The notes beneath the pieces were generated by a model that made no database searches, was not told where the DNA came from, and worked only from the letters and a program-made list of their open reading frames with translations. A stretch of 35,547 nucleotides of DNA from an uncultured Erysipelotrichaceae bacterium (lineage in GTDB: Bacteria > Bacillota_I > Bacilli_A > Erysipelotrichales > Erysipelotrichaceae), in NCBI GenBank assembly GCA_944326825.1, contig CALVFL010000007.1, forward strand, positions 1 through 35,547. The letters are read 5' to 3'. Below, piece after piece: positions 22,235 to 35,547 of the stretch (the first letter of the stretch is position 1; the number at the start of each line of letters is the position of its first letter). The position numbers and the translations under genes were made by a program.

Positions 22235-23073
22235 AAATTATTGATGCCTCTAAAGAGCTGGACATTTATTTTGGTGATTGCTTTGATCTTGAAAGATATG
22301 AAAGATACATCGATTCTTTTTTGCCAGGCTGTTTTAAATATATTATTGAGGATGTCAAAGATTACGATTTTGATAGACAATGTCTGCCTATCATTCATGA
22401 AGCTTTAAATGATCGTCATAAAATAGAAAAGATAGAAGCTAACTTCAATAAAGCTGTCGATCATTTAGCTGATAAGATTTATGAACTTACCGGCAAAAAA
22501 CCGGATGTGACGATCATCTTGTATTTAGGGTTATGCAACGGTGCCGGATGGTCAGTTAAAATGAATGATCAAGAGCTGATCTTATTGGGGGTTGAAAAGA
22601 TCATTGAATTGGATTGGACATCTTTAGATGATATGTATGGCTTGATCTATCATGAACTTGGACATGCATATCAATCGGAGTACGGTATTTTAGAATTGGA
22701 TGGCCTTGATCAAAAAGACCGGTTTATCTGGCAGCTTTATACCGAAGGCTTCGCTATGTATTTTGAAGAGCTTTTGATCGGTGATCCTGATTATTTTCAT
22801 CAAGATAAAAACGGCTGGTCAGATTATATGAGGGAACATTTAGAAGATCTGAAAAGAGATTTCTATTTTGATCTAGATAAAATGAACGACAGCGATCAGC
22901 GCTATTTTGGCGATTGGGTATCATATAACGGCTATGGCGACGGGGGATATTATCTTGGCGCAAAGTTTGTGCAGTATCTTTCAAAATATTATGATCTTGA
23001 TGAAATGATCAAACTTGATATAAAGGAAGTCAAAAACCGCTTGAAGGAATATTTAGGAGTTAAAGAATCATGA
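22228..23073 (+). CDS. Putative zinc-dependent metalloprotease (gluzincin-like)
   Basis: This 281-aa protein has no signal peptide. An active-site helix LIYHELGHAYQ provides His142, Glu143 and His146, and TEGFAMYFEELL about 27 residues later offers Glu173 as the third ligand. This layout is that of gluzincins of the kind annotated as putative Zn-dependent proteases (DUF2268-like and relatives). The N-terminal ~130 residues are acidic and unclassified. AAAGGAGTCGGG precedes the ATG. The stop overlaps the next gene by four bases (ATGA), and that gene also carries a HELLH domain. The exact family is not certain. Confidence 0.7.
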   Translation: MLEIIDASKELDIYFGDCFDLERYERYIDSFLPGCFKYIIEDVKDYDFDRQCLPIIHEALNDRHKIEKIEANFNKAVDHLADKIYELTGKKPDVTIILYLGLCNGAGWSVKMNDQELILLGVEKIIELDWTSLDDMYGLIYHELGHAYQSEYGILELDGLDQKDRFIWQLYTEGFAMYFEELLIGDPDYFHQDKNGWSDYMREHLEDLKRDFYFDLDKMNDSDQRYFGDWVSYNGYGDGGYYLGAKFVQYLSKYYDLDEMIKLDIKEVKNRLKEYLGVKES

Positions 23074-24065
23074 ATGTTAAGATCGATATATCAAATGTTA
23101 GATTATCTACCAAAAGACTTTTATTGAGAATGTGGCAAGAAAGTGATCTCGATGATTTTTATGAATATGCCAAAGTCGAAGGAGTAGGCGAGATGGCTGG
23201 CTGGCCGCATCATCAAGATAAAGAGGAAACTAGGAAGATTCTGAAGCGTTTTATCAAAGACAAAAAGACTTTCGCTTTAGTGTATAAAGATAAAGTGATC
23301 GGCTCGCTTGGCATCGAAGAAGCTAATGAAACATTACTAAAGGATTTGAAAATTGATAAAGCTGTTGAAATTGGTTTTGTTTTGAGCAAAGACTATTGGG
23401 GAAAAGGTCTGATGGCTGAAGCAGCCAAGGAAGTGATCAGGTATCTTTTTTGTGAAGTAAGACTTGAAGCGATCGTCTGCAGTTATTTTGTATCCAATAA
23501 ACAATCCCAAAGAGTTCAAAATAAGTGCGGTTTTAAATATTATAAGTCATATCAGATGAAAACCAGAGCGGGTACTTTAGAAGATACGAATGTCCAGCTT
23601 TTGACGTACGAAGACTGGCTTGAGGATTTATTAGATAAATGGCTTGGCGTCTTGCGTATTAAAAATAACTGGGATGTCAAACTGGAATTAGTCAAAGATC
23701 CTGATTTTAAAAAGACCGGTGACATCAGGATCGATGTTGAAGATAAGAAAGCAATCGTTTTATTGAATGTCCTTGATCCTAAAGATGATAACTTGGAAGA
23801 AACGATCTGTCATGAATTATTGCATCTTAAACTTTATCCTTTAGACCAGTTTGCAGAAAATATGATAAAGGCCAACTATGAAGAAGGGTCTAAGGCGCAG
23901 AATACTCTTTACTATGAGTTTTATCAAGACCTGGAGATCACGGTGGAAGAGCTGACAAAATGTTTTATCAAAGAGTTTGGCGACAGCAAAACTTTATCAT
24001 TCAAAAGAACAGGTCTAAAAAAGAGTTTTGAAGAACTTTATGAAGGACTTGATGATCTGAGGTGA
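23070..24065 (+). CDS. GNAT acetyltransferase fused to a HELLH zincin-like domain
   Basis: This 331-aa two-domain protein has a RimJ/RimL-type GNAT acetyltransferase at residues 10-180, with the acetyl-CoA-binding loop SKDYWGKGLMAEA (106-118) and the terminal NKCGFKYYKSY. Residues about 198-330 form a separate domain with ICHELLHLKLYP (His248, Glu249, His252), the zinc-binding helix of a compact metallopeptidase. A possible third acidic ligand lies in the YYEFYQDLEITVEEL stretch. There is no signal peptide. It overlaps the preceding zincin gene by four bases, and a GNAT gene follows. The fusion joins two activities, each also present as a neighbour. Functions of both domains are inferred from motifs only. 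Confidence 0.78.
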   Translation: MNVKIDISNVRLSTKRLLLRMWQESDLDDFYEYAKVEGVGEMAGWPHHQDKEETRKILKRFIKDKKTFALVYKDKVIGSLGIEEANETLLKDLKIDKAVEIGFVLSKDYWGKGLMAEAAKEVIRYLFCEVRLEAIVCSYFVSNKQSQRVQNKCGFKYYKSYQMKTRAGTLEDTNVQLLTYEDWLEDLLDKWLGVLRIKNNWDVKLELVKDPDFKKTGDIRIDVEDKKAIVLLNVLDPKDDNLEETICHELLHLKLYPLDQFAENMIKANYEEGSKAQNTLYYEFYQDLEITVEELTKCFIKEFGDSKTLSFKRTGLKKSFEELYEGLDDLR

Positions 24066-24069
24066 AAAG

Positions 24070-24564
24070 ATGGAACTTAAACAGTATGCTTTAGCTGATG
24101 AAAAGATCATGATCAACATGATCAAGGATTTCTGGAAGGATCATAACGGGGAAGATGAAGACGATGAAGAAGCCAGGGCAGATCTTATAAAATGGTCAAA
24201 AGAAACCAGTGATCGTCTTTATCTCTTCAAAGAAGATGATGAAGTTTTAGGTTTTGCTCATCTTGGCTCAAGAGGAGCTGGCATCGACTGGTTAGAACAT
24301 TTATATGTCAAAAAAGATCATCGGAAGAAAGGTGTCGGTTCTAAGGCCATTGAACTTTTGGAAGCGATCGTCAAAGAATATTCAATATCAATGTATATTG
24401 AAGTAGCAGCCAGAAATCTTGAAGCGATGGATCTTTATTATCGTTTAGGTTATGATACATTAAATACTATTACGATCAGAAAAGATTTTACCGGCGGATA
24501 TAAAGAGATGACCGAAGAAAAGATCGCTGAACATCGATTCAGCATTAAAAAGAAAGCGAGATAG
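24070..24564 (+). CDS. GNAT family N-acetyltransferase
   Basis: This 164-aa cytosolic protein has the GNAT core: a beta-strand pair ending in WLEHLYVKKDHRKKGVGSKAIELL (acetyl-CoA pyrophosphate loop R/K-x-x-G-V-G, about residues 77-100) and the C-terminal ARNLEAMDLYYRLGYDTL. An acidic insert DHNGEDEDDEEA near residue 25 is unusual but may only be a loop. GAGGTG precedes the ATG, four bases after the fusion gene. The substrate is unknown. Confidence 0.88.
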   Translation: MELKQYALADEKIMINMIKDFWKDHNGEDEDDEEARADLIKWSKETSDRLYLFKEDDEVLGFAHLGSRGAGIDWLEHLYVKKDHRKKGVGSKAIELLEAIVKEYSISMYIEVAARNLEAMDLYYRLGYDTLNTITIRKDFTGGYKEMTEEKIAEHRFSIKKKAR

Positions 24565-24567
24565 AAG

Positions 24568-25025
24568 ATGAAGATCAAAAGGTTTGAAAGAGCAGATATT
24601 GAAAAAGTTATCACTTTTGAAAAGAATTGAGAAAACAGGAACCCGATACTTATTTTTGGGATATTGATGAAAAGTATCAGGAAACGCTGGAACTTAGTTT
24701 TGATGATCAAAGGTTTAATGAGGCTATCACTTATCTGGCCTTTGTGAACGATAAGATCGTCGGCAGGATCGATGCCTCGCTGATCGTTTCACGCTTTGAC
24801 GGCAAGATCAGTTCAGCTTATTTAGACTGGATCTGTGTTTTAAAAGATCATCGCCATCAAGGCATAGCAAGAGGATTGCTTGAAGAATTGAAGAAAGATT
24901 TAAAAGAAAAGGGCATAACAACACTGATAACTTTGACTTCGGTCAATGAAGAAGCTAAACGTTTCTATGCTGCAAGAGATGACGTCAGCAGCAAATACGA
25001 TGCTTTGTGGATAGAATTTAAGTAA
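24568..25025 (+). pseudogene. GNAT acetyltransferase, frameshifted
   Basis: The frame starting at ATG 24568 reads MKIKRFERADIEKVITFEKN and then stops, while the next frame from about 24624 continues as LRKQEPDTYFWDID through a complete GNAT domain (DHRHQGIARGLLEELK loop). Adding one G in the AAAAGAATTG tract near 24624 restores FEKELRKQEPD and a 152-aa protein. The remaining 458 bases are one short of a multiple of three, consistent with a single deletion. It may be a real pseudogene or a sequencing error. The ORF beginning at the TTG at 24627 would lack strand 1 and is not a credible gene. Confidence 0.8.
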
Positions 25026-25067
25026 CGGTTAATATTTGTTGCCTTAATAATTCATTTGAGGATAAAT

Positions 25068-25522
25068 ATGTTAAGAGTGTGTCATGAAAAAGAGTTTTGT
25101 CAATATGCGGATCTGGCTTATGAATTAGCCATAGATAAAACAAGATCTGCCTATCCAAGCTATAGTGATGGCATCAAAACTAAGGCCATGTTTTTAACAC
25201 GGTCTAAAAAGGCCTTCACAAGAGATAATGAGGAGATCCTTCTTTTTGAAGATGAAGGTATTATAAAGGGTGGATCCATTATTACTGGTTAGCCGATGAT
25301 AAATATATATCAACAGTCAGTTTTAACATTGCCGATCACTTTGCAAGGGCTTTAGATGAATTTATTAAGTTGTTAGGGGATAGATTTTCTAGTTATGAAC
25401 TATATCTAGGTTTTTCTAAAGAAAACCGCATGGCCATAACTTATATGGCAAACAATGATTTTAAATGCATCGATATAAGCAACAATAATACTGCTTTTTT
25501 AGATAAGATGATCGGATCATAG
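25068..25522 (+). pseudogene. GNAT-like acetyltransferase, frameshifted
   Basis: ATG 25068 follows TTTGAGG by six bases. The first frame runs about 74 codons to a premature TAG near 25292. From about 25268 another frame continues as WIHYYWLADDKYISTVSF and on to a TAG at 25520-25522, with an EFIKLLGDRFSSYELYLGFS-type acetyltransferase C-terminal part. One extra G in the GGG at 25268-25270 would join them into a 151-aa protein. The 455-base length is one short of a multiple of three. GNAT assignment is likely but less clear than for its neighbours. Confidence 0.7.
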
Positions 25523-25536
25523 ATTTATGCTATTTT

Positions 25537-26070
25537 TCATAACCGGATACTTTGAGCGAGCATTTCTTTGGCTTTATGCAGGATCGGAAGTTCACGGTTC
25601 GCTATCAATCTTCCCAGCTTGGTATTTGATCTGCGTTGATATTCTTCGATCGCTTCTTTATATGAAAGCTTAAGAGTAGATAAGTGAAAGGATTCTTCTT
25701 CTGCATGTGTCAAGTGTCTTTTGCCGAATGATCTTACCTTGCACAGATAGTAATTGTTGATATTGTGTCTATGGATCAGATTGTAATAATCACTTACGAC
25801 TCCTATTTTGCCTAATATATCTACTTTGGCACCTAATTCTTCTTTCAGTTCTCTTTTAAGAGAAGAAAAGAAGTCTTCGCCTTCTTCGACCCCGCCGCCG
25901 GATGTTTCGATGAGAGTTGCCTTGCCGAACTCATCATTTCTTTCTACTCTTACAAAATAAAACATATTGTCAGAGTCAACTACGATCGCTCTAACGATAT
26001 GACGGTCATTATCTGTATATGTAAACGGCCACTCATCATCCTTTAATTCAAGATATATTTCATTAGACAT
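25537..26070 (-). CDS. NUDIX hydrolase
   Basis: This 177-aa cytosolic pyrophosphohydrolase has a complete Nudix box, G59-x5-E65-x7-R73-E74-x2-E77-E78-x-G80, in SGGGVEEGEDFFSSLKREL. The substrate (nucleotide sugar, oxidised nucleotide or other) is not determinable. The start at 26070 is chosen because AGAAGGAG sits six bases before it. A longer in-frame start at 26094 overlaps the MazG stop but has no site of its own. It is downstream of the MazG gene on the same strand, so two nucleotide-cleansing pyrophosphatases are probably co-expressed. Confidence 0.9.
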   Translation of the reverse strand: MSNEIYLELKDDEWPFTYTDNDRHIVRAIVVDSDNMFYFVRVERNDEFGKATLIETSGGGVEEGEDFFSSLKRELKEELGAKVDILGKIGVVSDYYNLIHRHNINNYYLCKVRSFGKRHLTHAEEESFHLSTLKLSYKEAIEEYQRRSNTKLGRLIANRELPILHKAKEMLAQSIRL

Positions 26071-26090
26071 ATTTGCTCCTTCTGCTTTGA

Positions 26091-26438
26091 TCATAGATCG
26101 GTTTTTTTATTTCTGTTTTTTATCACAAACTGTTCGAGATTTATCTTGTGATCATATTTGATAGAGGCGGTCTTATCTTTTTCAAGAATGATCTGATTCA
26201 TATCAAGGCCGTTAAGAGCACCGATAGCAAGCGTATAATGGATCACATCGGTTAGTTCTTCACCTAGCTGTCTTTTGAGATCTTCCTCATCTGTCTTTTT
26301 TCTTCCTGATCTTTTATTCAATACTTCAGCTACTTCTCCGATCTCTTCAACAAGTTTCATAAACAAACTCTCATCGATCCCTTTGTCTTTATAATGATCG
26401 TATAAATAATCTTCCAGTTCTTTTATCGTAATGTCCAT
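26091..26438 (-). CDS. MazG-like nucleotide pyrophosphohydrolase
   Basis: This 115-aa all-alpha NTP pyrophosphatase belongs to the MazG/dUTPase-like fold. Metal-binding residues follow the family pattern: EExxE (Glu31, Glu32, Glu35) in LVEEIGEVAEVL and ExxD (Glu61, Asp64) in LGEELTDVIHYTL. It is a single-domain form of usual length (100-120). AAGGA lies about eight bases upstream of the ATG. It precedes the NUDIX gene and follows a broken GNAT gene on the same strand. Confidence 0.88.
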   Translation of the reverse strand: MDITIKELEDYLYDHYKDKGIDESLFMKLVEEIGEVAEVLNKRSGRKKTDEEDLKRQLGEELTDVIHYTLAIGALNGLDMNQIILEKDKTASIKYDHKINLEQFVIKNRNKKTDL

Positions 26439-26462
26439 AAGTCTTATCCTTTCTTGATCAAA

Positions 26463-26909
26463 TCATAATTCATATCTCATGTATAGGACCGGATAGGGTT
26501 TTCCTTGATCGTCTAGTTCATTTCTTTGATATACCTTAAAGCCGATATGTTCATAAAAACCACTGGCTTCTGGATTATCTTCATTGACGGCAAGTTCATT
26601 CACGCCATATTTCGCTATACCATGCAAAAGCATCTTTTTGCCGATGCCCTGCCCTCTATATTCTGAAGCAACAAACAGCATTTCCAATTTGTTGTTTTCG
26701 ATGCCCATAAAAGCGACAGGAACTTTATTTTTGTCAGTATCAATGATCAAATGAGCTACATTGCTTAAGGCTTCTGGCACATATTCTTTCATTTCTAAAA
26801 TTTCTTCATTTTATAAAAAACGATGCGTTGCCCTTACTGAAGACTCCCAAACATTCAGCAGTTCTTTGATCAGTTTTTCGTTTCTTTCTTCTTGTCTGAT
26901 TTCTTTCAT
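26463..26909 (-). pseudogene. YjaB-like GNAT acetyltransferase with an in-frame stop
   Basis: Read from ATG 26909, the frame gives MKEIRQEERNEKLIK, then VWESSVRATHRFL, then a TAA, and continues without frame change as NEEILEMKEYVPEAL and on to GFKVYQRNELDDQGKPYP at the end. The whole closely follows E. coli YjaB (about 147 aa), which has a serine where the TAA stands (ATHDFLSAE). One base (TCA to TAA) explains the break. The downstream 109-residue ORF from 26792 has no ribosome-binding site and lacks the first strand and helix, so it is not a functional start. The gene is broken unless the stop is a sequence error. Confidence 0.82.
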
Positions 26910-26975
26910 ATCCTCAAATCTGGTATAAATACTGGTCCTTATAGGTCATAATTTATTATATAATGTGTACCATTT

Positions 26976-27005
26976 TTGTCATATATAAAAAATATAACTT
27001 ATATT
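26976..27005 (+). promoter_or_regulatory. Promoter of the gene at 27031
   Basis: TTGTCA (26976-26981) and TATATT (27000-27005) are 18 bases apart. AAGGAGG follows at 27017-27023 before the ATG at 27031. Confidence 0.45.
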
Positions 27006-27030
27006 AAAATATAGACAAGGAGGAAATAAT

Positions 27031-27831
27031 ATGATTTATAGTTTTAATGAAAGATTAGTTGTCGAGAATATGAACAAAGGGCCAGAAGAATTGGTGAATA
27101 TAATTAAGGAAAAGATTAATTATATTATGGGGCAAATAGGAGATGATTCAGATAAGGATCTTCCATGTCATGTTGAAGTAGAAAGTGATATTCTTAAATT
27201 TTCTTTTGATTGTCAAGATGACGTTGACAATTCTGTTAGATTAATCACTGAATTGATTGAATCTTTAAATGACACAAATTGGATCGTTTTAAACATAACG
27301 CATTGTTGCAGTGATGAATATGATGCTTGGGTAAAAAAACTAAAGAAATTGGATGAATCGGTTTTTGACCATTTAAGTTACTATTGTTATATTAGTTATG
27401 GTACAGATGAAACCGGAGATGTAAGTGTCTATAGAAAGAAAAATGGAAAAATACAAAAAGGTTTTATGGATAAATATGTTCCGACAAACGAAATCCCTGA
27501 AGGAAAATGGTATGGAGAACACTTGATATACAATGATGAGTACTCTGGGATAAATGAAAATGTAATGAAATTGATCGAAAAACTTCAAGATTATGTTGAA
27601 ATTGAAAGCAACGAGGAAGAATTTGATTTTTATGCTGATAAATTAGTAGATAATTGTCCGATGAAAGAAATGCTCGATTTGTTATTGGAAATTTATATTG
27701 AAGTTTATAAAGGCGAGGATATTGAAGACTTTTCACATAAATATGTAAAATTTGGAAAAAAAGACATGGATGTTTTAGTAGTTGATTTTCATTTGAAAGA
27801 AAAAAAATATGATATCCTATTAGCAGAATAA
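27031..27831 (+). CDS. Unrecognised 266-aa acidic protein
   Basis: I do not recognise this protein. It is soluble, acidic and has no signal peptide or membrane segment. It contains a Cys-Cys pair (THCCSDEYDAWVKKL) and a YYCYISYGTDETGDV strand region in the middle, and a helical C-terminal third. A strong AAGGAGG precedes the ATG. The gene is clearly more AT-rich than those to its left. A WYL regulator gene begins 14 bases after its stop, so the two are probably co-transcribed and the protein may be controlled by, or act with, that regulator. Confidence 0.75.
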   Translation: MIYSFNERLVVENMNKGPEELVNIIKEKINYIMGQIGDDSDKDLPCHVEVESDILKFSFDCQDDVDNSVRLITELIESLNDTNWIVLNITHCCSDEYDAWVKKLKKLDESVFDHLSYYCYISYGTDETGDVSVYRKKNGKIQKGFMDKYVPTNEIPEGKWYGEHLIYNDEYSGINENVMKLIEKLQDYVEIESNEEEFDFYADKLVDNCPMKEMLDLLLEIYIEVYKGEDIEDFSHKYVKFGKKDMDVLVVDFHLKEKKYDILLAE

Positions 27832-27844
27832 ATTATTCAAATAT

Positions 27845-28810
27845 ATGAAAAATGATAAAAATACCACATTATTACTTCTAGAAATATTTGAACGTTATAC
27901 TAATAAAGACAATCCATTATCAATAAAAGATATTATATTGAAATTAAGTGAGCATGGCGTTGAAATCGAGAGAAAAACTTTTTATAGAGAATATAAAAAG
28001 TTTTTAGCTTCAGGATATGACATCAAAAAAACCAACATCTTAGGAAGAAGCACAAAATATTATTTAGATAGATATTCATTTACCAGTACAGAAGCAATGA
28101 TTTTAATGGATGTTGTAGGTTCTTGCGATATTTTAACTGATTATCAGTATGAACAAATAGTGGATAAGATAAGATATACTCAAACTCAAAAAGATGCTGA
28201 TAGTTTAGATGAAATCCCATTTGTAAAAAGCATGAGCAATACAAATAATTATCTGGGTAATCTTGAAAAAATATCGAAAGCAATAAAAGAAAAGCTTAAG
28301 ATAAGGTTCAGAATGACTACTAAAGATAGATATGGAAACACTATTTTAAGAAGAGATGGAAAATATTACAGTTTTGAACCTTATCATCTAGTTTATAGAA
28401 ATAATAAGTATTATGTTGTCGGATTGATGAATGACCATGACCAAATTGGTAGTTGTCGAGTTGACAGATTGACCGATTTGGAAATAACAATATATAAATG
28501 TCGATATTTTGATAACTATAGCAATATTGAAACCCTTATCAACAATATCGATGATATGTTTTTTGGTAAGGAAATCTTTGTCGATATTATAACTGAAGAA
28601 AAATATTCCTACTTAATTTTTGATTTATTTCACGATGTTAATTTCTTAGATTACAATAATGGCTATGTGGTTTATAGAATAAAGGAATATTATTCTGATA
28701 AATTAGTAGATGAGTTAATTTCTTATAGTTTTTTGACTGTCATATCGCCTTCTGATGTTGTAGAAAAGATCAAGCATAAGATAAAGTTGATCAATGAGAG
28801 ATATAACTAA
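27845..28810 (+). CDS. WYL-domain transcriptional regulator
   Basis: This 321-aa cytosolic regulator has an N-terminal winged helix-turn-helix (about 8-75, with SIKDIILKLSEHGVEIERKTFYREYKKF). The WYL ligand-binding domain core, about 174-212, reads YYSFEPYHLVYRNNKYYVVGL followed by SCRVDRLTDLEI. A WCX-like C-terminal part follows to the end. WYL regulators sense nucleic-acid or nucleotide ligands and often control accessory or defence loci; that is family knowledge and not shown here. No ribosome-binding site is visible before the ATG, 14 bases after the previous gene. Confidence 0.88.
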   Translation: MKNDKNTTLLLLEIFERYTNKDNPLSIKDIILKLSEHGVEIERKTFYREYKKFLASGYDIKKTNILGRSTKYYLDRYSFTSTEAMILMDVVGSCDILTDYQYEQIVDKIRYTQTQKDADSLDEIPFVKSMSNTNNYLGNLEKISKAIKEKLKIRFRMTTKDRYGNTILRRDGKYYSFEPYHLVYRNNKYYVVGLMNDHDQIGSCRVDRLTDLEITIYKCRYFDNYSNIETLINNIDDMFFGKEIFVDIITEEKYSYLIFDLFHDVNFLDYNNGYVVYRIKEYYSDKLVDELISYSFLTVISPSDVVEKIKHKIKLINERYN

Positions 28811-29203
28811 ATTGTTTTCGTAAATAGCAAATTATTTTATTTTGTAGTAAACTAGTTACATAAAACAACATTATATTTAAATATTTTAGAGGTAAAACAA
28901 GGTATATCCTCTTGAATGTTATAAAAAGAAATTATTATATTTAAATATCCTTTGTTATCTAATAAAACCGGATTAGTTCCGGTAAATAAACCGGTGTTGC
29001 CCTTTTATTTAAAACGATCGAATTATTGAAGAAGTAAATATGGCGATCAATACCAACAATTAAAAATGGATCAACTTTTTGAAAATGTATATATAAGAAA
29101 GGTTCTTTTGTTAGAAATCTAAAATGGCTTAATAGATTATATTTTGATTGATAGTTGATCTATTGTTATTGCATAGTGATTAGATGAAAAGTGAGGTTTA
29201 TAA
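28811..29203. other. 393-base AT-rich intergenic region before the radical SAM gene
   Basis: No convincing gene is present. There is a direct repeat ATTATATTTAAATAT near 28870 and 28935, and a small inverted repeat ACCGGA (28967-28972)/TCCGGT (28978-28983) followed by another ACCGGT at 28990-28995. The last could be a regulatory hairpin or operator. A promoter for the radical SAM gene must lie here, but several AT-rich hexamers compete and none stands out. Confidence 0.5.
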
Positions 29204-30268
29204 GTGCGTTATATAATAGTTGATAAAAAATATAGTTTCGTAAGTTTTTTCGATACTGACGATGGCACATATATAAGAACAGGAATTTTAGACTCCGAAG
29301 GAAAAGACACAGGTATTGATCCATTTATGGCGTCTTATCCTCATCTTATTGATGTCGGGATAATGGGACATTGTATTCATGGTAAAACCGGACTTTGTTC
29401 TAAAGCTGGAATCGAGTGTTACCAAAGTGGTATGCTTGTAGAGAAGCCAAATATGACAGTAGATAATTTTAAAAAGATAGTCCATCAGTCCCGGGGCAAG
29501 TGCAATCAAATAGCACTGGGGGGAAGAGGAGATCCTGATCAGCATGAGAATTTTGAAGAATTTTTAAAAATATCTAGAGAGAATCAAATTGTTCCTAATT
29601 TTACAACCTCAGGATATGGTCTTACTTTAAGCAGTGCAAAACTATGCAAAGAGTATTGTGGAGCCGTGGCTGTAAGTTGGTACAGAAGTGAATATACCAT
29701 CAAAGCTATAAATATACTACTAGATGTAGGGGTAAAGACAAATATACATTTTGTTTTAGGCAACAACAGTATAGACGAGGCAATTGATCGATTAAAAAGA
29801 AATGATTTTCCAAAGGGAATCAATGCTGTGATATTTCTTCTGCACAAACCAGTCGGACAGGGAACCGATAAAAATGTAATAAACGTTAAAGATCCTAGAT
29901 TATTAGAATTCTTCTCGCTTATAGATATTAGACATCCGTTTAAAATAGGCGTAGATAGTTGTACTGTTCCTGGTATCTTTAATTTTAGCGAGAAAATTAG
30001 ACAAGAATCAATCGATAGTTGTGAAGCAGGAAGATTTAGTTGCTATATTGATTCGGATATGAACATGATGCCGTGTAGTTTTGATCAAAAACAAGAATTT
30101 AAAATATCTATCAAACACTTAAGTATAGAAAAAGCTTGGAACAGCAAACCTTTTGATAAGTTTAGAAATAAGATGCATTCAGCTTGTCCAAATTGCGATA
30201 AAAGGAATTTATGCTTAGGCGGATGTCCTATTGTGCCTAAAATTGTTTTATGTGAGAATAAATTGTAG
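29204..30268 (+). CDS. Radical SAM/SPASM enzyme, probable peptide or protein modifier
   Basis: This 354-aa cytosolic iron-sulfur enzyme has a C-terminal SPASM domain matching the family pattern: Cys273, Cys291, then C-x2-C-x5-C-x3-C at Cys328, 331, 337 and 341, and Cys350. Such domains hold auxiliary clusters in peptide-modifying radical SAM enzymes. The N-terminal cluster region is unusual. Instead of C-x3-C-x2-C there are Cys57, Cys65 and Cys72 (C-x7-C-x6-C) in a GHCIHGKTGLCSKAGIEC stretch. ALGGRGDP (104-111) stands for the GGE motif. The start is GTG, eight bases after GAGG. The next gene, 31 bases downstream, encodes an LRR protein with a serine-rich conserved-looking N-terminus and is the obvious candidate substrate. 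Confidence 0.85.
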   Translation: MRYIIVDKKYSFVSFFDTDDGTYIRTGILDSEGKDTGIDPFMASYPHLIDVGIMGHCIHGKTGLCSKAGIECYQSGMLVEKPNMTVDNFKKIVHQSRGKCNQIALGGRGDPDQHENFEEFLKISRENQIVPNFTTSGYGLTLSSAKLCKEYCGAVAVSWYRSEYTIKAINILLDVGVKTNIHFVLGNNSIDEAIDRLKRNDFPKGINAVIFLLHKPVGQGTDKNVINVKDPRLLEFFSLIDIRHPFKIGVDSCTVPGIFNFSEKIRQESIDSCEAGRFSCYIDSDMNMMPCSFDQKQEFKISIKHLSIEKAWNSKPFDKFRNKMHSACPNCDKRNLCLGGCPIVPKIVLCENKL

Positions 30269-30299
30269 TATTTATTGTTTTTAATGAGAGGGGAATTTT

Positions 30300-32948
30300 A
30301 TGAAATTTAGAACTGATTTTGTCACAAATTCAAGTAGTAGCAGTTTCATTACTGTATTACTTGAAACGGAATCCGAAACGCTCGAAAGCACATTTTTATC
30401 ATATGATGGATATGGCTATTTTGTCGGCGAAAATATTAATACTAAAAAGTTAAGCAAAGCCCTAGATACATGCGAGAATGGCGAAGAGTTTATTGAGGTA
30501 TTAAACGATAATTTAAATGAAAATTTCAAGTGTTGGTATGAAAACGAAGCCTCGACCGAGTATAAAAAGATTTTAGATATTGAAGACTTTGATGAAGTTA
30601 TTCGCCTAGAAATCAGGGAAGAAGTGGGCTCTGGCACTTATGGTAACAAATGGGAATATGTAAAAGAATTTAACGAAGGCAATGAAAGAGTTTTACAGTA
30701 TGAAAATTACAATGCCTTGGATGATACTAATCTATGGTCAGATGAAAAAATAGCTTTTTATAAAGTGTTGAAAGATCTAGACAAAGGAAAGCACAATAAT
30801 AAAATAAAAGCTTTCATAGATTCAATACAGTTAGTTTCTGCTAAAAGTCTAACTTTGCCACAAGGTTATACGTCCTTTTCAGGAGTTTCGTATAAAAATC
30901 TTGTTTTGCTAAATATACCAGAAGGGATAACAAAAACAGCAGAAGACCGTTCTTGTTATAATGATGCCAAGAATCTAATTTATGTTGATTTACCACAAAG
31001 TTTAAAAATGCTTGGTAGAATTTTCCGTGGCTGCGAAAAAATAACTTTTATAACTATTCCGAACAGGGTTAAAAGGATATATTCACATTCTTTTCAAGAT
31101 TGTATTAATTTAAGGTCTATTAAATTGAATGAAGGATTGAAGAAAATTGATGAGCATGCTTTTGCCGGATGCACAAGCTTAAAACATGTCGTTATTCCCC
31201 AAAGTGTAATTGAGATAGGAAAATGTGCATTTACTTCATGTGCCAATCTTGAAAAAGTATATATACCAAGAACTATTGAAAAAGTTGCTTATGATGCTTT
31301 TTATGGCTGTGCCAAGAATGAAAAAGACCTCATAATCTATTACGATGACAAAGAGGAAATAGAAGTGACAGAAATCCTTGAAATTGATGGGTATATTTTT
31401 GATAAAAAGCTAAAAACTATTATCATACCAGAAGGGGTTACTTCTATAGGAGATGATGCTTTTGCAGGGTGTGAAAATCTCTTGTCTATTGTATTGCCAA
31501 AATCAGTTATAAGTATAGGCAAGAATGCTTTTTTTGGATGTAAAAATCTAGAAACAATAGTTTTACCAGAAAAGTTAAAAGAAATAGGTGATAATGCTTT
31601 CTTAGGATGCAAAAGCTTAAAGAACATCGAATTGCCTGATACTGTAGATACAATCGGAAAGATGGCATTTGCTTCTTGTACTTCTTTGGAATCTATAAGT
31701 ATTCCCAAACATATCAAAGAGATCAGGGAGTACTTGTTCGCAGAGTGCAATGCTTTGAAATCAATAAGCATTCCTGAAGGAGTTAAGGAAATAGCCGAAG
31801 GTGTTTTTAACGGTTGCACTTCTCTTGAATCCATCGTGATACCAGATAGTGTATCTATGATAGGAAAATATGCTTTTTCTTCTTGCGACAATCTCACATC
31901 AATAAATATCCCTAAGAGTTTAAAAGTGTTTAATGGTTTTTCTAAATTTAAAAATATAAACTCATTAATTATTCCAGAAACCATAAAAGAAATTGGAGAG
32001 AGTGCATTTGAGTTTTGTTTAAATATTAAGTCATTGGTTATTCCTGAGGGAATAACCAAAATAGGCAAAAATGCATTTGCCAGTTGTTATAATCTAAAAT
32101 CTGTTGTTATTCCTGACAGTGTAACTAAAATTGAAAATAATGCCTTTTTTAAATGCGTGAAACTTGCAAAGGCTATTTTACCTGCTGGTTTAACTAAGGT
32201 TGGAGAATCAGTTTTTAAAGGATGCGAAAATCTTGCATCTATTAACATTCCTGAAGGAGTGACTGCGATAGGTAAAGAGTCCTTTAGTGGTTGTTCAAGC
32301 CTTACTTCAATCACTATACCAGAAGGTGTAACCAAGATAGGTAATTATGCTTTTAGTGGTTGCTCAGGCATTACATCAATTAACATTCCTGAAGGAGTGA
32401 CTGAAATTGGTGAACTTGCTTTTAGTGGTTGTTCAAGCCTTACTTCAATCGTCATACCAGAAGGCGTAACCAAGATAGGTGATTATGCCTTTAGTGGTTG
32501 CAAGAATCTCATTTCTACTATAATGCCAAGCAATTTAACCAAAATAGACGATTATAATTATTTTAGTGGTTGTTCAAGCCTTACTTCAATCACTATACCA
32601 GAAGGCGTAACTAAAATAGGTCAGTCTGCTTTTATTGGTTGTTCCGGCATTACATCTATTAACATTCCTGAAGGAGTGACAGAAATAGGCGGATGGGCTT
32701 TTAGTGGTTGTTCAAGCCTCACTTCAGTCGTTATACCAGAAGGCGTAACTAAGATAGGCGAGTATGCTTTTAGAGGTTGTTCAAACATCGTTTCAATCAT
32801 TATTCCAAAAAGCGTTAACAAAATATCTACGTATGCTTTTAGTGGTTGCAAAAATCTTTCTTCAGTTATTATTTCAAATAGCACTAAATACAATGAACAT
32901 AAGGTTTTTGAAGGCTGTAAAAAACTGAGTAATATAACACATTATTGA
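30300..32948 (+). CDS. BspA/TpLRR-type leucine-rich-repeat protein with N-terminal TDFVTNSSSSSF motif
   Basis: This 882-aa protein has three parts. Residues 1-20 read MKFRTDFVTNSSSSSFITVL. A unique acidic domain of about 180 residues follows. About 28 tandem 23-residue TpLRR repeats of the form L-x-SI-x-IPEGVTKIG-x-x-AF-x-GC-x-x then run from about residue 200 to the end. Unlike most BspA-like proteins it has no signal peptide, membrane anchor or sorting signal, so it should be cytosolic. I recall the DFVTNSSSSSF block at the N-termini of otherwise unrelated proteins in anaerobes, which would make it a tag and not part of the LRR fold. GAGAGGGG precedes the ATG, 31 bases after the radical SAM gene, so the two are probably one operon. 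The last ten repeats contain a nearly exact DNA duplication. Confidence 0.9.
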   Translation: MKFRTDFVTNSSSSSFITVLLETESETLESTFLSYDGYGYFVGENINTKKLSKALDTCENGEEFIEVLNDNLNENFKCWYENEASTEYKKILDIEDFDEVIRLEIREEVGSGTYGNKWEYVKEFNEGNERVLQYENYNALDDTNLWSDEKIAFYKVLKDLDKGKHNNKIKAFIDSIQLVSAKSLTLPQGYTSFSGVSYKNLVLLNIPEGITKTAEDRSCYNDAKNLIYVDLPQSLKMLGRIFRGCEKITFITIPNRVKRIYSHSFQDCINLRSIKLNEGLKKIDEHAFAGCTSLKHVVIPQSVIEIGKCAFTSCANLEKVYIPRTIEKVAYDAFYGCAKNEKDLIIYYDDKEEIEVTEILEIDGYIFDKKLKTIIIPEGVTSIGDDAFAGCENLLSIVLPKSVISIGKNAFFGCKNLETIVLPEKLKEIGDNAFLGCKSLKNIELPDTVDTIGKMAFASCTSLESISIPKHIKEIREYLFAECNALKSISIPEGVKEIAEGVFNGCTSLESIVIPDSVSMIGKYAFSSCDNLTSINIPKSLKVFNGFSKFKNINSLIIPETIKEIGESAFEFCLNIKSLVIPEGITKIGKNAFASCYNLKSVVIPDSVTKIENNAFFKCVKLAKAILPAGLTKVGESVFKGCENLASINIPEGVTAIGKESFSGCSSLTSITIPEGVTKIGNYAFSGCSGITSINIPEGVTEIGELAFSGCSSLTSIVIPEGVTKIGDYAFSGCKNLISTIMPSNLTKIDDYNYFSGCSSLTSITIPEGVTKIGQSAFIGCSGITSINIPEGVTEIGGWAFSGCSSLTSVVIPEGVTKIGEYAFRGCSNIVSIIIPKSVNKISTYAFSGCKNLSSVIISNSTKYNEHKVFEGCKKLSNITHY
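32283..32779 (+). repeat. Internal duplication in the LRR gene
   Basis: A block of about 218 bases starting TTTAGTGGTTGTTCAAGCC at 32283 recurs at 32562, an offset of 279 bases (93 codons). The two copies encode the same order of repeats (SSLTSITIPEGVTKIG, SGITSINIPEGVTEIG, SSLTSI/VVIPEGVTKIG). The high DNA identity, well beyond that of the other repeats, points to recent duplication. Confidence 0.8.
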
Positions 32949-33221
32949 AAAAACTTAACCACCATTTATCTATACAAATATATAAAAATTATATAGCATG
33001 GCCATTACAATTATTGGGTTTTTGAATGTGACTAACAGTTTGATGATAAAATATTATACTCTTTTATTAAAGGATTATATAAGATTGAAGAAGATGCCAA
33101 ATCAGTTCTAAAATAAAACAATAGATTTTTATCAAATGATTGAATAATTTAAAACAAAATGGAATGTGTTATAACAAACTATAAAGAGTAAAACAATTAG
33201 GCTGAGTTGTTAAAGTGTTGA
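32949..33221. other. AT-rich intergenic region with a possible gene remnant
   Basis: About 270 bases without a gene. An open stretch at 33036-33116 would encode a 26-residue helical tail ending EEDAKSVLK and a stop. It has no start codon of its own, so it may be the end of a decayed gene. Nothing else is recognisable. Confidence 0.35.
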
Positions 33222-33227
33222 TATAAT
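33219..33227 (+). promoter_or_regulatory. Extended -10 promoter for a leaderless gene at 33235
   Basis: TGATATAAT (33219-33227) is a perfect extended -10, seven bases before the ATG. No clear -35 is visible at the right distance, which is common for extended -10 promoters. No ribosome-binding site lies between. Confidence 0.6.
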
Positions 33228-33234
33228 TGTAAGT

Positions 33235-34401
33235 ATGAAATATTTGGAATTGTTTTTAAGCGATAGGATAAAGGGAATATATAAAACCAGATTGACTGGC
33301 AATACCTTGTATCTCAACAAAGATTTTAAAATCAAGAAGTTATCTGTCAATGGCAAAGAAGCTGCTCATAAGATAACTAAAAATGATTGCTGGCAAAGCA
33401 TTACTTTTGATGAACCTGGTGATGTTTATTTAGAATATGAGGGAGTACTAGATGGCGCAAGCGGGTTATGTCCCTATGTCAAAGAAAAGACCAGTGATGA
33501 TTTTTATATTCTAAGATATGAAACGCTTTATTATCCTTTGGAATATGAAGTGGGATCAGAAGAATTCATAAGCCATTATCTATATCCGCAAAAAGAAGAT
33601 TTTTTTAAAGTAAATGTCAGAATAAATGATGAAAGAAAGATCTTGTCTGATCTGGTGTATAAAGAGGACGGCTATTATGGTCCTAATCCTGTCTTTATTA
33701 TTGGTCACTATCATAAAACGACCGCTTATTTCGGCAATATCTATCATTTAGATCTTTCGGATAAGATTATAGATAAAGGTGTAGCTCTTATCAAAAACGC
33801 CAATGAGATATTAAGAGTCTATCATGATGTAACTTTAAAAGATCTCAATCTTTATATCATGCCTGAAGGTTATGGCAGCTTTGTGATGAATGGTGAGCAG
33901 GTTTCCCTTTTTATAACTGTGGATTCCTTTTTAGATCCCCACTATCTCATCCATGAATTGACCCATCTTCATTGGAATCCCAAGTGTGATCCTAAGATCC
34001 AGAATGTCCGCTTCTTTGATGAAGCCATAAGCCAATATTTAACTTTGAAAATATTAGATAAACTAAAGATACAAAGTACCAAAGATACCGAAAAAGAATA
34101 TATCAATACTTATCGTACATATATCAATGAATATGGTTATATCCCTTCTCCGATCCTTGAATATGCAAGCAAAGGAAATGGTGATCTGAGTTATTCTTTT
34201 GGAGCACTGGCTTTACTGACGATCGATAAAAGAGTAGGCGAAGTTAAAATGACTTCTGTTTTAAGAGAAATTATCAATAGTGACACTCTTATTGATTTTG
34301 ATGTCTTTAAGAATAAATTTGTAAATATCGAGGATATTTGGCATGACTTCTTTATTAGTAACGATTATTCTGATAAAATACTTGTTGAAGGTCAAGAATG
34401 A
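33235..34401 (+). CDS. M1-like gluzincin metallopeptidase
   Basis: This 388-aa protein has the full M1-family zinc signature HExxH-x18-E: His240, Glu241 and His244 in LIHELTHLHW and Glu263 in FFDEAISQYL. The N-terminal ~170 residues are beta-rich, like the saddle domain of M1 aminopeptidases. The GAMEN exopeptidase motif is not found; GYGSFVMNG stands in that area. There is no signal peptide. Full-length M1 aminopeptidases are 600-900 aa, so this is a compact form that lacks the C-terminal helical domain. The promoter's -10 lies seven bases before the ATG. Codon use and composition return to those of the chromosome backbone. Confidence 0.75.
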   Translation: MKYLELFLSDRIKGIYKTRLTGNTLYLNKDFKIKKLSVNGKEAAHKITKNDCWQSITFDEPGDVYLEYEGVLDGASGLCPYVKEKTSDDFYILRYETLYYPLEYEVGSEEFISHYLYPQKEDFFKVNVRINDERKILSDLVYKEDGYYGPNPVFIIGHYHKTTAYFGNIYHLDLSDKIIDKGVALIKNANEILRVYHDVTLKDLNLYIMPEGYGSFVMNGEQVSLFITVDSFLDPHYLIHELTHLHWNPKCDPKIQNVRFFDEAISQYLTLKILDKLKIQSTKDTEKEYINTYRTYINEYGYIPSPILEYASKGNGDLSYSFGALALLTIDKRVGEVKMTSVLREIINSDTLIDFDVFKNKFVNIEDIWHDFFISNDYSDKILVEGQE

Positions 34402-34408
34402 TCTTGCT

Positions 34409-34453
34409 TGTCTCCCTAGTTAAATGGATATAACGAGCCCCTCCTAAGGGCTA
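34409..34453 (+). repeat. Partial copy of tRNA-Arg (5' part only)
   Basis: These 45 bases are identical to 34639-34683, the first 44 bases of the intact tRNA-Arg plus one base before it. They comprise the acceptor 5' strand, D arm and complete anticodon arm with CTCCTAA. Beyond 34453 the sequence diverges and the variable loop, T arm and acceptor 3' strand are missing, so it cannot make a tRNA. Confidence 0.85.
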
Positions 34454-34512
34454 GGTGGAACAAACGCCTTTTGATATGATAACTAGATAAAATTGAATAG
34501 ATTTTTAAGAAT

Positions 34513-34620
34513 GTCCCAGTACCTCAGCAGGATAGAGGGTTCGCCTCCTAAGTGTTAGTCAAAAGTGGGCTTGATATGTTAAAATGTGTTAGTCAAAACG
34601 GTTCGATTCCGCCTTTAGAC
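34513..34620 (+). pseudogene. Degenerate tRNA-like sequence with an internal 34-base duplication
   Basis: A D-arm (CCTC AGCAGGATA GAGG), a CCTCCTAAG anticodon-loop-like segment and a T-arm-like ACGGTTCGATTCCGC appear in order. The acceptor strands GTCCCAG and TTTAGAC pair poorly. GTGTTAGTCAAAA occurs at 34552-34564 and 34586-34598, so a 34-base unit has been duplicated or inserted where the variable loop should be. Probably a dead tRNA-Arg(CCT) copy of foreign origin. Confidence 0.5.
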
Positions 34621-34639
34621 GCTTGATTTTTGCTAACCT

Positions 34640-34714
34640 GTCTCCCTAGTTAAATGGATATAACGAGCCCCTCCTAAGGGCTAATTGAGGGTTCGATTCC
34701 CCCGGGGGACGCCA
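34640..34714 (+). tRNA. tRNA-Arg (CCT)
   Basis: The acceptor stem GTCTCCC/GGGGGAC (one T-G pair) is intact. The anticodon stem AGCCC/GGGCT carries loop CTCCTAA, so the anticodon is CCT. The T-loop is TTCGATT, the discriminator G, and CCA is encoded (34712-34714). The T stem has one A-C mismatch (GAGGG/CCCCC). A terminator follows. Two damaged relatives lie just upstream. Confidence 0.9.
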
Positions 34715-34723
34715 AAGTCTACT

Positions 34724-34767
34724 ACCGAGAAATGCCGATGAATAAAGGCTCATTCTCGGTTTTTTTA
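34724..34767 (+). terminator. Intrinsic terminator after tRNA-Arg
   Basis: ACCGAGAAATG (34724-34734) pairs with CATTCTCGGT (34751-34760), with one bulged A, and runs into seven T. Confidence 0.8.
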
Positions 34768-34811
34768 TTTTGTTATCAAATTTGTAAAAAATGACGATTT
34801 TCGAGAATTTT

Positions 34812-34973
34812 GGGTGGCAACGGGTGGCAAAGGTCATTTTTGCTTACATGATAACTAATACCTAAGGAAGTGTTAGTTAGGGTGTAACCGGGTGGCAAGA
34901 ATTTTGATGTTTTGCCACCCAAAATGGTCTTTTTGCCACCCAAATTTAAAATTTTAATTCGATTTTGCCACCC
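34812..34973. repeat. Six-copy GGGTGGCAA repeat field
   Basis: GGGTGGCAA occurs on the plus strand at 34812-34820, 34822-34830 and 34890-34898, and inverted (TTGCCACCC) at 34912-34920, 34933-34941 and 34965-34973. Clusters of short direct and inverted nonamers beside a tRNA gene are typical of the arm-type binding sites of tyrosine integrases. No integrase is present in the window. Confidence 0.8.
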
Positions 34974-35001
34974 AACTCTTTGAAAAATACTTAATTGTTA
35001 A

Positions 35002-35181
35002 TTATGATATGATTCTTATTTTTTTATGCGCCAGTACTCTTTTAGCTTCTTCTTCGGTTTTATATAGTCTTTTGTTAGATAATCTTATACCACTACCATT
35101 TTCAAATCTGACAGTGGTGAACTGCTTTGTTTCTTTGATTATTTCTACTTTAGTTATGAATCGATTTGGCTCAATGCTCAT
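35002..35181 (-). CDS. Small 59-aa protein of unknown function
   Basis: On the minus strand a 59-residue frame begins MSIEPNRFITKVEI and continues with a plausible beta-hairpin (QFTTVRFENGSGIRLSNKRLY) and a Lys-rich helical tail (TEEEAKRVLAHKK). The composition is that of a real protein, unlike the hydrophobic plus-strand frame over it. No ribosome-binding site precedes the ATG, and the frame stays open upstream for about 30 codons, so the true start may be elsewhere or the gene may be a fragment. It sits next to the GGGTGGCAA repeats and may belong to an integrated element. Function unknown. Confidence 0.45.
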   Translation of the reverse strand: MSIEPNRFITKVEIIKETKQFTTVRFENGSGIRLSNKRLYKTEEEAKRVLAHKKIRIIS

Positions 35182-35334
35182 GTGCCGTAAAGTAACACAA
35201 ATAAGAGAACAGACAGCCTCCCTACAGTTCCGAAAATAGTTTGTGGCTGACTGGTAGAAATATCATTCCGAGGGTGCTAAAATGGAACATAGAAATGAGC
35301 GACAAAATTGGAATTTATTGAGGAGAGCTAAAAA

Positions 35335-35547
35335 ATGAACTTGAAAGATTTGAAAAAAGATTGTGCCCAAAAGCAAAAGAAAGGTATTCATTTTATCATT
35401 GCATCAGTAGTAATATGGATCATGGTTTTAATCGTACAATTAACAGATTTACCTATATTAACAAAAAATCTATTAACATTTTGTTGCACTGCACCATTAT
35501 TACCTATAGCTTTTTTAATTTCTAAAATATTAAAAATACAATTTCAA
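35335..35547 (+). CDS. DUF7010-like membrane protein, cut by the window edge
   Basis: The first 71 residues are visible: a charged start (MNLKDLKKDCAQKQKKG) followed by two membrane helices (about 19-37 and 44-62) and the segment LLTFCCTAPLLPIAFLISKILKI. This strongly resembles the N-terminus of DUF7010 proteins, small (about 190 aa) multi-helix membrane proteins without known function. AGGAGAG precedes the ATG. The rest lies beyond the window. Confidence 0.7.
   Translation, partial: MNLKDLKKDCAQKQKKGIHFIIASVVIWIMVLIVQLTDLPILTKNLLTFCCTAPLLPIAFLISKILKIQFQ

Follow-up and report, generated by a model that had tools for sequence, protein, structure and literature searches.

A radical SAM/SPASM enzyme beside a leucine-rich-repeat protein with a conserved N-terminal tag: one case of a widespread pairing in cells, plasmids and phages

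The window analyzed here is a stretch of 35,547 nucleotides from an uncultured Erysipelotrichaceae bacterium (GenBank assembly GCA_944326825.1, contig CALVFL010000007.1, positions 1 to 35,547), in which a gene for a radical SAM (S-adenosylmethionine) enzyme with a SPASM domain is followed by a gene for a large leucine-rich-repeat (LRR) protein whose N-terminus is occupied by a short polar tag. SPASM enzymes are known for small peptide products or for maturing one particular enzyme, and the question raised by this locus is whether such an enzyme could act on the tag of a full-size protein. We found that the pair is one case of a widespread system, and, judging from sequences and structural models, we consider it probable that the window enzyme recognizes the 16-residue tag of the LRR protein and modifies its Asn-Ser-Ser-Ser block by radical chemistry.

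An earlier note on this DNA had described a SPASM radical SAM gene followed after 31 bases by a tagged 882-residue LRR protein, and both open reading frames (ORFs) were recovered as described. The enzyme, predicted to modify the tag, is encoded at 29204..30268 (354 amino acids, GTG start), and the LRR protein, its predicted substrate, at 30300..32948 (882 amino acids, ATG start), both on the + strand, with the ribosome-binding-site-like sequence GAGAGGGG (30286..30293, +) upstream of the start of the second gene. Residues 1 to 16 of the LRR protein (30300..30347, +) read MKFRTDFVTNSSSSSF, in agreement with the tag of the note, and Asn10-Ser11-Ser12-Ser13 (30327..30338, +), the core of the 402 tags that we aligned, is the candidate modification site. 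The BspA-type LRR array (30855..32945, +, start approximate) consists of seven PF13306 (LRR_5) stretches and scores 774.9 bits. The roughly 180 residues in between had been taken as unrelated sequence, which is not simply so: residues 17 to 185 (30348..30854, +) match a domain that follows the tag in five further proteins. Three tagged proteins were found by a search with residues 1 to 200 of the window protein, and a profile of residues 17 to 185, with the tag removed and seeded with two of the five domain-sharing proteins (P0121 and P0122, which likewise carry LRR_5 repeats), recruits L045, L132, and L076. The window protein resembles BspA-family LRR_5 proteins in its repeats but differs from them by the N-terminal tag and by this domain common to other tagged proteins. 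From its predicted order of tag, recurring domain of about 170 residues, and LRR array, it looks like a cytosolic recognition-type protein. The genome to which the window belongs (1.38 Mb, 82.6% complete) has one match to the tag and one such enzyme.

The co-occurrence of tag and enzyme, whose absence would have refuted the reading of the earlier note, was borne out in both directions, with tags at 76 of 80 viral enzyme loci and the enzyme at 98 of 117 cellular tag loci. Starting from the enzyme, the viral set (the best 80 of 331 relatives) contains 258 tags positioned at the start of a protein, one to eight per locus and all on the strand of the enzyme. The four tagless loci (L315, L342, L344, and L377) are short contigs or have the enzyme near the contig end, and an earlier, overlapping viral set had tags at 8/8 loci. 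Chance occurrence was rejected, as the reversed motif had 0 matches in the 80 loci versus the 258 tags. Within the phylum of the window, an enzyme match at an E value of 0.001 was found in 16/392 genomes, five of them strong (E value of 1e-20 or better; G000, G267, G142, G234, and G298, the window's own genome included), and in all five the tag gene adjoins that of the enzyme. The 11 weak matches (1e-6 or worse, partial) were taken as other radical SAM proteins. Two genomes of the same genus in this sample have no enzyme, and therefore the distribution of the pair is patchy. In a sample of another class, centered on a genome itself chosen by its tag (G407), the enzyme was found in 5/291 genomes, with a tag gene within 1.5 kb in all five. 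The strict tag pattern was likewise present in five of the 291, three of them enzyme positive; the other two matches are not start-positioned tags (G577 has no serine block, and the match in G533, L298, is internal to an ORF), and the enzyme-positive G448 and G473 carry a Gly6 variant of the tag that the strict pattern missed. On plasmids, the tagged gene lies just upstream of the enzyme in 4/4 loci examined, of seven records found.

Starting from the tag, we searched DNA with a pattern for MK[FILMV] followed by a Lys/Arg-like residue, any residue, DFV, a Ser/Thr-type codon, Asn, and three Ser/Thr-type codons; the patterns used in this direction thus imposed Asp6 and Phe7. At least 117 cellular tag loci were found, at least two genomes being counted twice (L061/L087 and L076/L085). 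Taxon names, taken from 80 of the 117, include among the matches listed Bacillota, Bacteroidota, Pseudomonadota, Coriobacteria, and candidate phyla, as well as Lokiarchaeota, Methanoculleus, and Thermoplasmatales among the archaea. The 98 enzymes among the 117 loci listed share a fragment of no more than 8 kb with the tag, as detected by a profile trained on enzymes from the same loci. This profile was built without the generic radical SAM matches L007 to L017, which still score up to 62.7 bits, and for this reason we also give a stricter count at 80 bits or more (94/117). Of the other 19 cellular genomes, 14 have the enzyme elsewhere and five have none. Among the viral tag fragments listed, the enzyme is present in 62/120; the remaining 58 come from 50 records, of which 28 carry it at another place and 22 not at all, and among records of at least 100 kb it is present in 15/16. 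The two genes are usually close. Of 91 cellular loci, 84 have a tagged gene no more than 200 bp from the enzyme, and in 89 the closest tagged gene shares the strand of the enzyme. All 52 viral loci have it on that strand, 29 of them at a distance of up to 200 bp and 49 of up to 1 kb.

Adjacency is not needed, since the enzyme and tagged genes of T4-like phages are far apart. In Citrobacter phage Margaery (L036 and L314), the enzyme gene is at about 91 kb and the two tagged genes are at 66.5 to 70.9 kb, a distance of 20 to 24 kb, and they are annotated as a radical SAM protein and hypothetical proteins. Among 50,697 records, the enzyme of T4-like enterobacterial phages was found in 172 and the two tagged proteins in 174 and 175, falling in nearly the same phage groups; the comparison used record counts and group names and concerns one clade, so it provides no independent statistic. 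Phage Lw1 also carries a tagged gene, which is gp120-like. The tag variant of these phages, MKIRSGFVSNSSSSSF, resembles that of G298, MKIRTGFVSNSSSSSF, and the G298 enzyme likewise has a widened first loop (CX12CX2C versus CX7CX2C). A search of phages with a tagged protein of G298 had no match.

The tag itself begins at residue 1, and its conservation ends near residue 18. In a set of 405 distinct tagged proteins, whose search expression imposed Val8 and Asn10 and which excludes tags with an ORF that leaves its locus (the Asp13 tag of G407 among them), residue 8 is Val in 402. Among these 402, Lys2 is found in 400, while residue 4 is Arg or Lys and residue 7 is Phe, Tyr, or His in all. Residues 11 and 12 are Ser in 402/402 and never Thr; only Ser and Thr were admitted there, so the measured fact is that Thr does not occur. 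Ser13 is present in 397/402. The 165 distinct starts of the enzyme-first viral set have Lys2 in 164, Asp6 in 149, and Phe, Tyr, or His at residue 7 in all, and all of them also have Thr9, where Ser and Ala were admitted, and Ser13, where any residue was. The expression for this tally needs [FYHLW]V[TSA]NSS and leaves uncounted 14 further distinct Ile8 tags, all with NSSS; a looser scan, in which residues 11 and 12 could be Ser, Thr, Gly, Asn, Ala, or Cys, brought in 14 distinct starts, each of them reading ITNSSS. In the model of one tagged protein, residues 1 to 5 and 7 to 9 have a pLDDT (predicted local distance difference test) below 50, as if flexible, and residues 16 to 18, which are hydrophobic, are within the first strand. 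We found no description of the tag in the open-licence papers that were searched.

The position of this stretch at the initiation codon, the presence of Val8 in 402/405 proteins, and the arrangement of tagged genes in arrays might also be expected of a translated DNA or RNA element, such as a recombination site, a leader, or a ribosome-binding context. However, codon identity between tags of one locus was 0.490 versus 0.405 expected (3,893 codon pairs, uncorrected for relatedness), and codon sharing this near the codon-usage expectation indicates that the tag is conserved as protein and not as DNA. We rejected the nucleic acid reading on these statistics, which largely refute it and make it extremely improbable.

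Some pattern matches were of other kinds. Among 10 inspected, seven encode no Asn-Ser-Ser-Ser and were discarded (L018, L019, L020, L023, L024, L026, and L027; L023 and L027 encode NSTT and NSTS, respectively). L025 (G098:C1:1892661) reads DFVTNSSSSSF exactly but lies within an ORF that lacks a nearby start codon, in a genome with no enzyme match. At L042:7637-7696, in an Erysipelotrichaceae genome where no enzyme was found, the tag is followed by a stop after 19 residues and is possibly a decayed gene. The densest cellular array that we saw is L095, with seven pattern matches in a 6.6-kb contig of a candidate Kaiserbacteria genome.

What follows the tag is highly variable. When 398 tagged proteins were cut after residue 20 and clustered by BLAST at an E value of 1e-5, they fell into 108 body clusters, 61 of them singletons, which agrees with the statement in the earlier note that the block occurs on proteins of unrelated architecture. 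Its description of a two-gene maturation system acting on a large protein, not on a small peptide precursor, fits the window, where there is one such pair and the candidate substrate has 882 amino acids, but it does not extend to the system as a whole, as a viral locus may have up to eight tagged genes per enzyme and the tagged relatives have a median length of 137 amino acids (up to 717). Domain scans covered 86 tagged sequences, i.e., the representatives of 84 of the 108 clusters plus the window protein and L045, both added deliberately. BRCT was found in three and LRR_5 in two (the window protein being one), and at least 66 of the 86 have no Pfam family match. A match to PHROG 7397, a family of unknown function, was seen in 29/86, in one member through residues 1 to 29. 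No ORF fusing the tag and the enzyme was found among the loci examined. One cluster of tagged proteins of about 135 residues (L101:2223-2636 and relatives) had no Foldseek match at an E value of 0.001 or better and nothing better than 0.16 in a profile search; in all 28 aligned members the last residue is aromatic (Trp, Tyr, or Phe), so that the C-terminus is conserved as well.

This variety also bears on the possibility that the tag is the start of one ancient family, with bodies that diverged, an N-terminus kept for structural reasons, and an enzyme link that is only operon inheritance. The hydrophobic residues 16 to 18 in the first strand of the model and the many tagged proteins of 100 to 190 amino acids are consistent with such a family. 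Nevertheless, LRR, BRCT, and cysteine-rich proteins all occur as bodies, sequence conservation does not reach beyond about residue 18, residues 1 to 9 are modeled as flexible, and tag and enzyme are about 20 kb apart in T4-like phages, so we regard common descent of this sort as very unlikely. As the same enzyme family goes with the same tag on proteins of dissimilar sequence, recognition by the enzyme would depend on the tag rather than on the body, and the tag would be a portable signal.

A further link is that tag variants track enzyme subtypes. Classified by cluster motif, the enzyme loci comprise 81 with CX3CX2C, 74 with CX7CX6C, and some small groups; a further 24 are unclassed because the enzyme is cut by the fragment end or the locus is a generic radical SAM control. 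Residue 4 of the tag is Arg at 59/61 CX7CX6C loci and Lys at 52/78 CX3CX2C loci (Fisher P = 5e-16, uncorrected for relatedness), and residue 14 is Ser at 53/61 versus 20/78. Tags on different bodies are more alike within a locus (0.773, n = 278) than between loci (0.663, n = 77,431).

With regard to the enzyme of the window, the SPASM region (residues 273 to 350, 30020..30253, +, with CX2CX5CX3C at 328 to 341) scores above the curated cut-offs of TIGR04085 (35.8 versus 27 bits) and PF13186 (29.6 versus 21.5 bits). The presumed [4Fe-4S]/SAM site is a three-cysteine motif of non-canonical spacing, C57-X7-C65-X6-C72-Y (29372..29419, +), that is, an unusual CX7CX6C, which is present in 120/120 homologues listed of 4,367 matches, none of which has CX3CX2C. 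The predicted structure has the radical SAM barrel fold, preceded by about 46 residues (judged by eye, with no dedicated search for a RiPP recognition element), and its nearest folds are mostly peptide-acting SPASM-type enzymes (SuiB, SkfB, anSME); entry 5why is CteB. The PF04055 score of 16.6 bits (cut-off, 29.5) and the fixation of CX7CX6C in all 120 homologues could point to a catalytically degenerate protein acting as a binding scaffold for tagged proteins. We give this little credence and hold it to be very improbable, as the protein retains both the three cysteines of the motif and those of SPASM, and as CX3CX2C relatives pair with the same tag. Across the family, every full motif classed keeps at least three cysteines, the shorter match of L222 being a regular-expression cut. 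Two phage enzyme ORFs are much longer than that of the window, one of 789 amino acids (L034:4420-6786) interrupted by what by eye is an intein-like insert and another of similar length, 782 amino acids (L240:3783-6128).

Most probably, the enzyme would bind the flexible residues 1 to 9 of the tag and the radical reaction would fall on the Asn10-Ser13 block, with Ser11 and Ser12 as the favored sites because Thr never replaces Ser there. The leading candidate chemistries are cross-linking of a side chain and, by analogy with the maturation of sulfatases, the conversion of Ser to an aldehyde by oxidation, and the modified tag may switch on or recruit the protein that bears it. Alternatively, the tag could be a docking or localization signal, to which the enzyme binds for its own recruitment or by which tagged proteins are gathered at one place, with the radical reaction falling on a small molecule or another residue. 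Residues 1 to 5 and 7 to 9 are below a pLDDT of 50, as expected of a short linear motif, and many phage loci have several tagged proteins per enzyme. On the other hand, the absence of Thr at residues 11 and 12 is stricter than a docking motif usually needs, the nearest folds are mostly peptide-acting enzymes, and outside the NTPase operons described below no neighbor is common to most cellular loci, which makes docking unlikely. The largest cluster of such neighbors is LRR-like and found in eight loci; a cluster of LRR-like proteins (member L115 confirmed as LRR_5, the rest by eye) is beside the enzyme at 7/94 cellular loci, six of them CX7CX6C; a small protein that by eye resembles a helix-turn-helix regulator is beside the enzyme at L130:3626-3982 and six other cellular loci.

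Several observations weigh against modification of the tag by the window enzyme. This enzyme is without CX3CX2C and below the PF04055 cut-off, and its catalysis is only predicted. The tag contains no SPASM substrate motif known to us, and Ser13 is not strict, being Thr in 5/402 tags and Asp in that of G407 (L281). Some tag carriers seem to lack the partner: no enzyme was found in the tag-bearing genomes G392, G395, G401, G404, and G405, which are possibly incomplete, or on 22/50 tagged viral records, possibly fragments, among them the 122-kb G712 and G703, G706, G719, G725, and G742 of 61 to 86 kb. Near-identical contigs account for several of the 80 viral loci, the 258 tags amounting to 165 distinct 18-residue starts. 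Finally, remote homology may remain among bodies clustered by BLAST at 1e-5, and neither the covariation nor the codon statistics were corrected for relatedness.

The closest known systems are the SPASM maturases (SuiB, SkfB, PqqE, CteB) of RiPPs (ribosomally synthesized and post-translationally modified peptides). As in a RiPP pair, the predicted substrate adjoins the maturase (a gap of 31 bases here, and at most 200 bp at 84/91 cellular loci). In contrast, the candidate substrate is here a full-size protein, its 882 amino acids being unlike a short precursor with a conserved leader and a variable core; the arrangement of leader and core is reversed, as the conserved part is the candidate target and the remainder varies, and one enzyme goes with many unrelated bodies. 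All NCBIfam equivalogs listed for the window enzyme are below their cut-offs. It does not belong with anSME (TIGR03942, 18.4 versus a cut-off of 349.45 bits), and the tag is without S/C-x-P/A-x-R, the sulfatase motif for anSME. The best match, TIGR04317 (tungsten cofactor oxidoreductase radical SAM maturase), is shared by 9/10 family members, but the window enzyme scores only 39.9 bits versus a cut-off of 380. It differs from viperins, which are antiviral radical SAM enzymes, in that it has no PADLOC (pVip) match and in its SPASM domain and its partner, a tagged protein; its relative L089 has a weak pVip match (E value of 3e-13).

The canonical (CX3CX2C) class has a gene neighborhood of its own. 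At 39 canonical cellular loci, a member of a nucleoside triphosphatase (NTPase) cluster is present in 24, a small protein of about 130 amino acids in 21, and a tagged protein of the largest body cluster in 24, while the NTPase and the small protein are found in 0/50 CX7CX6C cellular loci. All 30 NTPase-cluster ORFs, plasmids included, are on the strand of the enzyme. The four NTPases that were scanned (L100, L089, L119, and the plasmid L038) match PADLOC Avs2 with E values of 5e-17 to 9e-32; at their N-termini two have SMEK and one a trypsin-like domain, and one has no Pfam match. These neighbors suggest an immune role for the canonical class, as predicted from gene content, and the likeness to Avs2 STAND NTPase immunity applies to 24/39 canonical cellular loci and not to the window, among whose ORFs of 24000-35547 no STAND NTPase was found. 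To our knowledge, classical Avs2 has no radical SAM partner. The operons at L100:1266-5793, L089:837-5309, and L119:2296-6993 combine the Avs2-like NTPase, the protein of about 130 amino acids, and a tagged protein, and may be a candidate defense system; the canonical enzyme is also part of operons of this type where the fragment reaches, and that of L119 has a metallo-beta-lactamase-fold gene upstream. The same layout recurs at L306:5736-11729 (G551), where a metallo-beta-lactamase-like gene and a separate trypsin-like gene lie upstream and another gene encodes 730 amino acids. Canonical CX3CX2C pairs include the Arenibacter and Sulfurimonas genes (L100 and L081).

It can be tentatively proposed, as something possible though on the unlikely side, that the tag is a portable modification code: one enzyme family would read a 16-residue tag on any protein and place a new modification on the Asn-Ser-Ser-Ser core, cells would use it in immune operons of an Avs2-like STAND NTPase, a small protein, a tagged protein, and the enzyme, and large phages would carry an enzyme of their own and arrays of tagged proteins, maybe mimicking or saturating the tagged immune component of the host.

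Around the pair in the window, a predicted WYL-domain regulator (27845..28810, +; PF13280, 34.4 bits; PADLOC WYL) lies upstream. Farther upstream, at 23070-26792, there is a cluster of ORFs that from their translations appear by eye to be GNAT acetyltransferase-like, NUDIX-like, and MazG-like. Downstream, at 33235-34401, an ORF of 388 amino acids has a HELTH metallopeptidase-like motif and no NCBIfam or Pfam family match.

If modification of the tag by this enzyme family is true, the pairing of one enzyme family with a fixed tag on many dissimilar proteins would constitute a general protein-modification signal, present in bacteria and archaea as well as on plasmids and in T4-like phages that can be cultivated. 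A tag this short, beginning at residue 1, can be transferred to a reporter protein, which makes its chemistry testable. The CX7CX6C motif raises the question of how much the cluster site of radical SAM enzymes can be stretched, and the link to Avs2-like operons, together with the phage arrays, poses a direct question of host-phage conflict.

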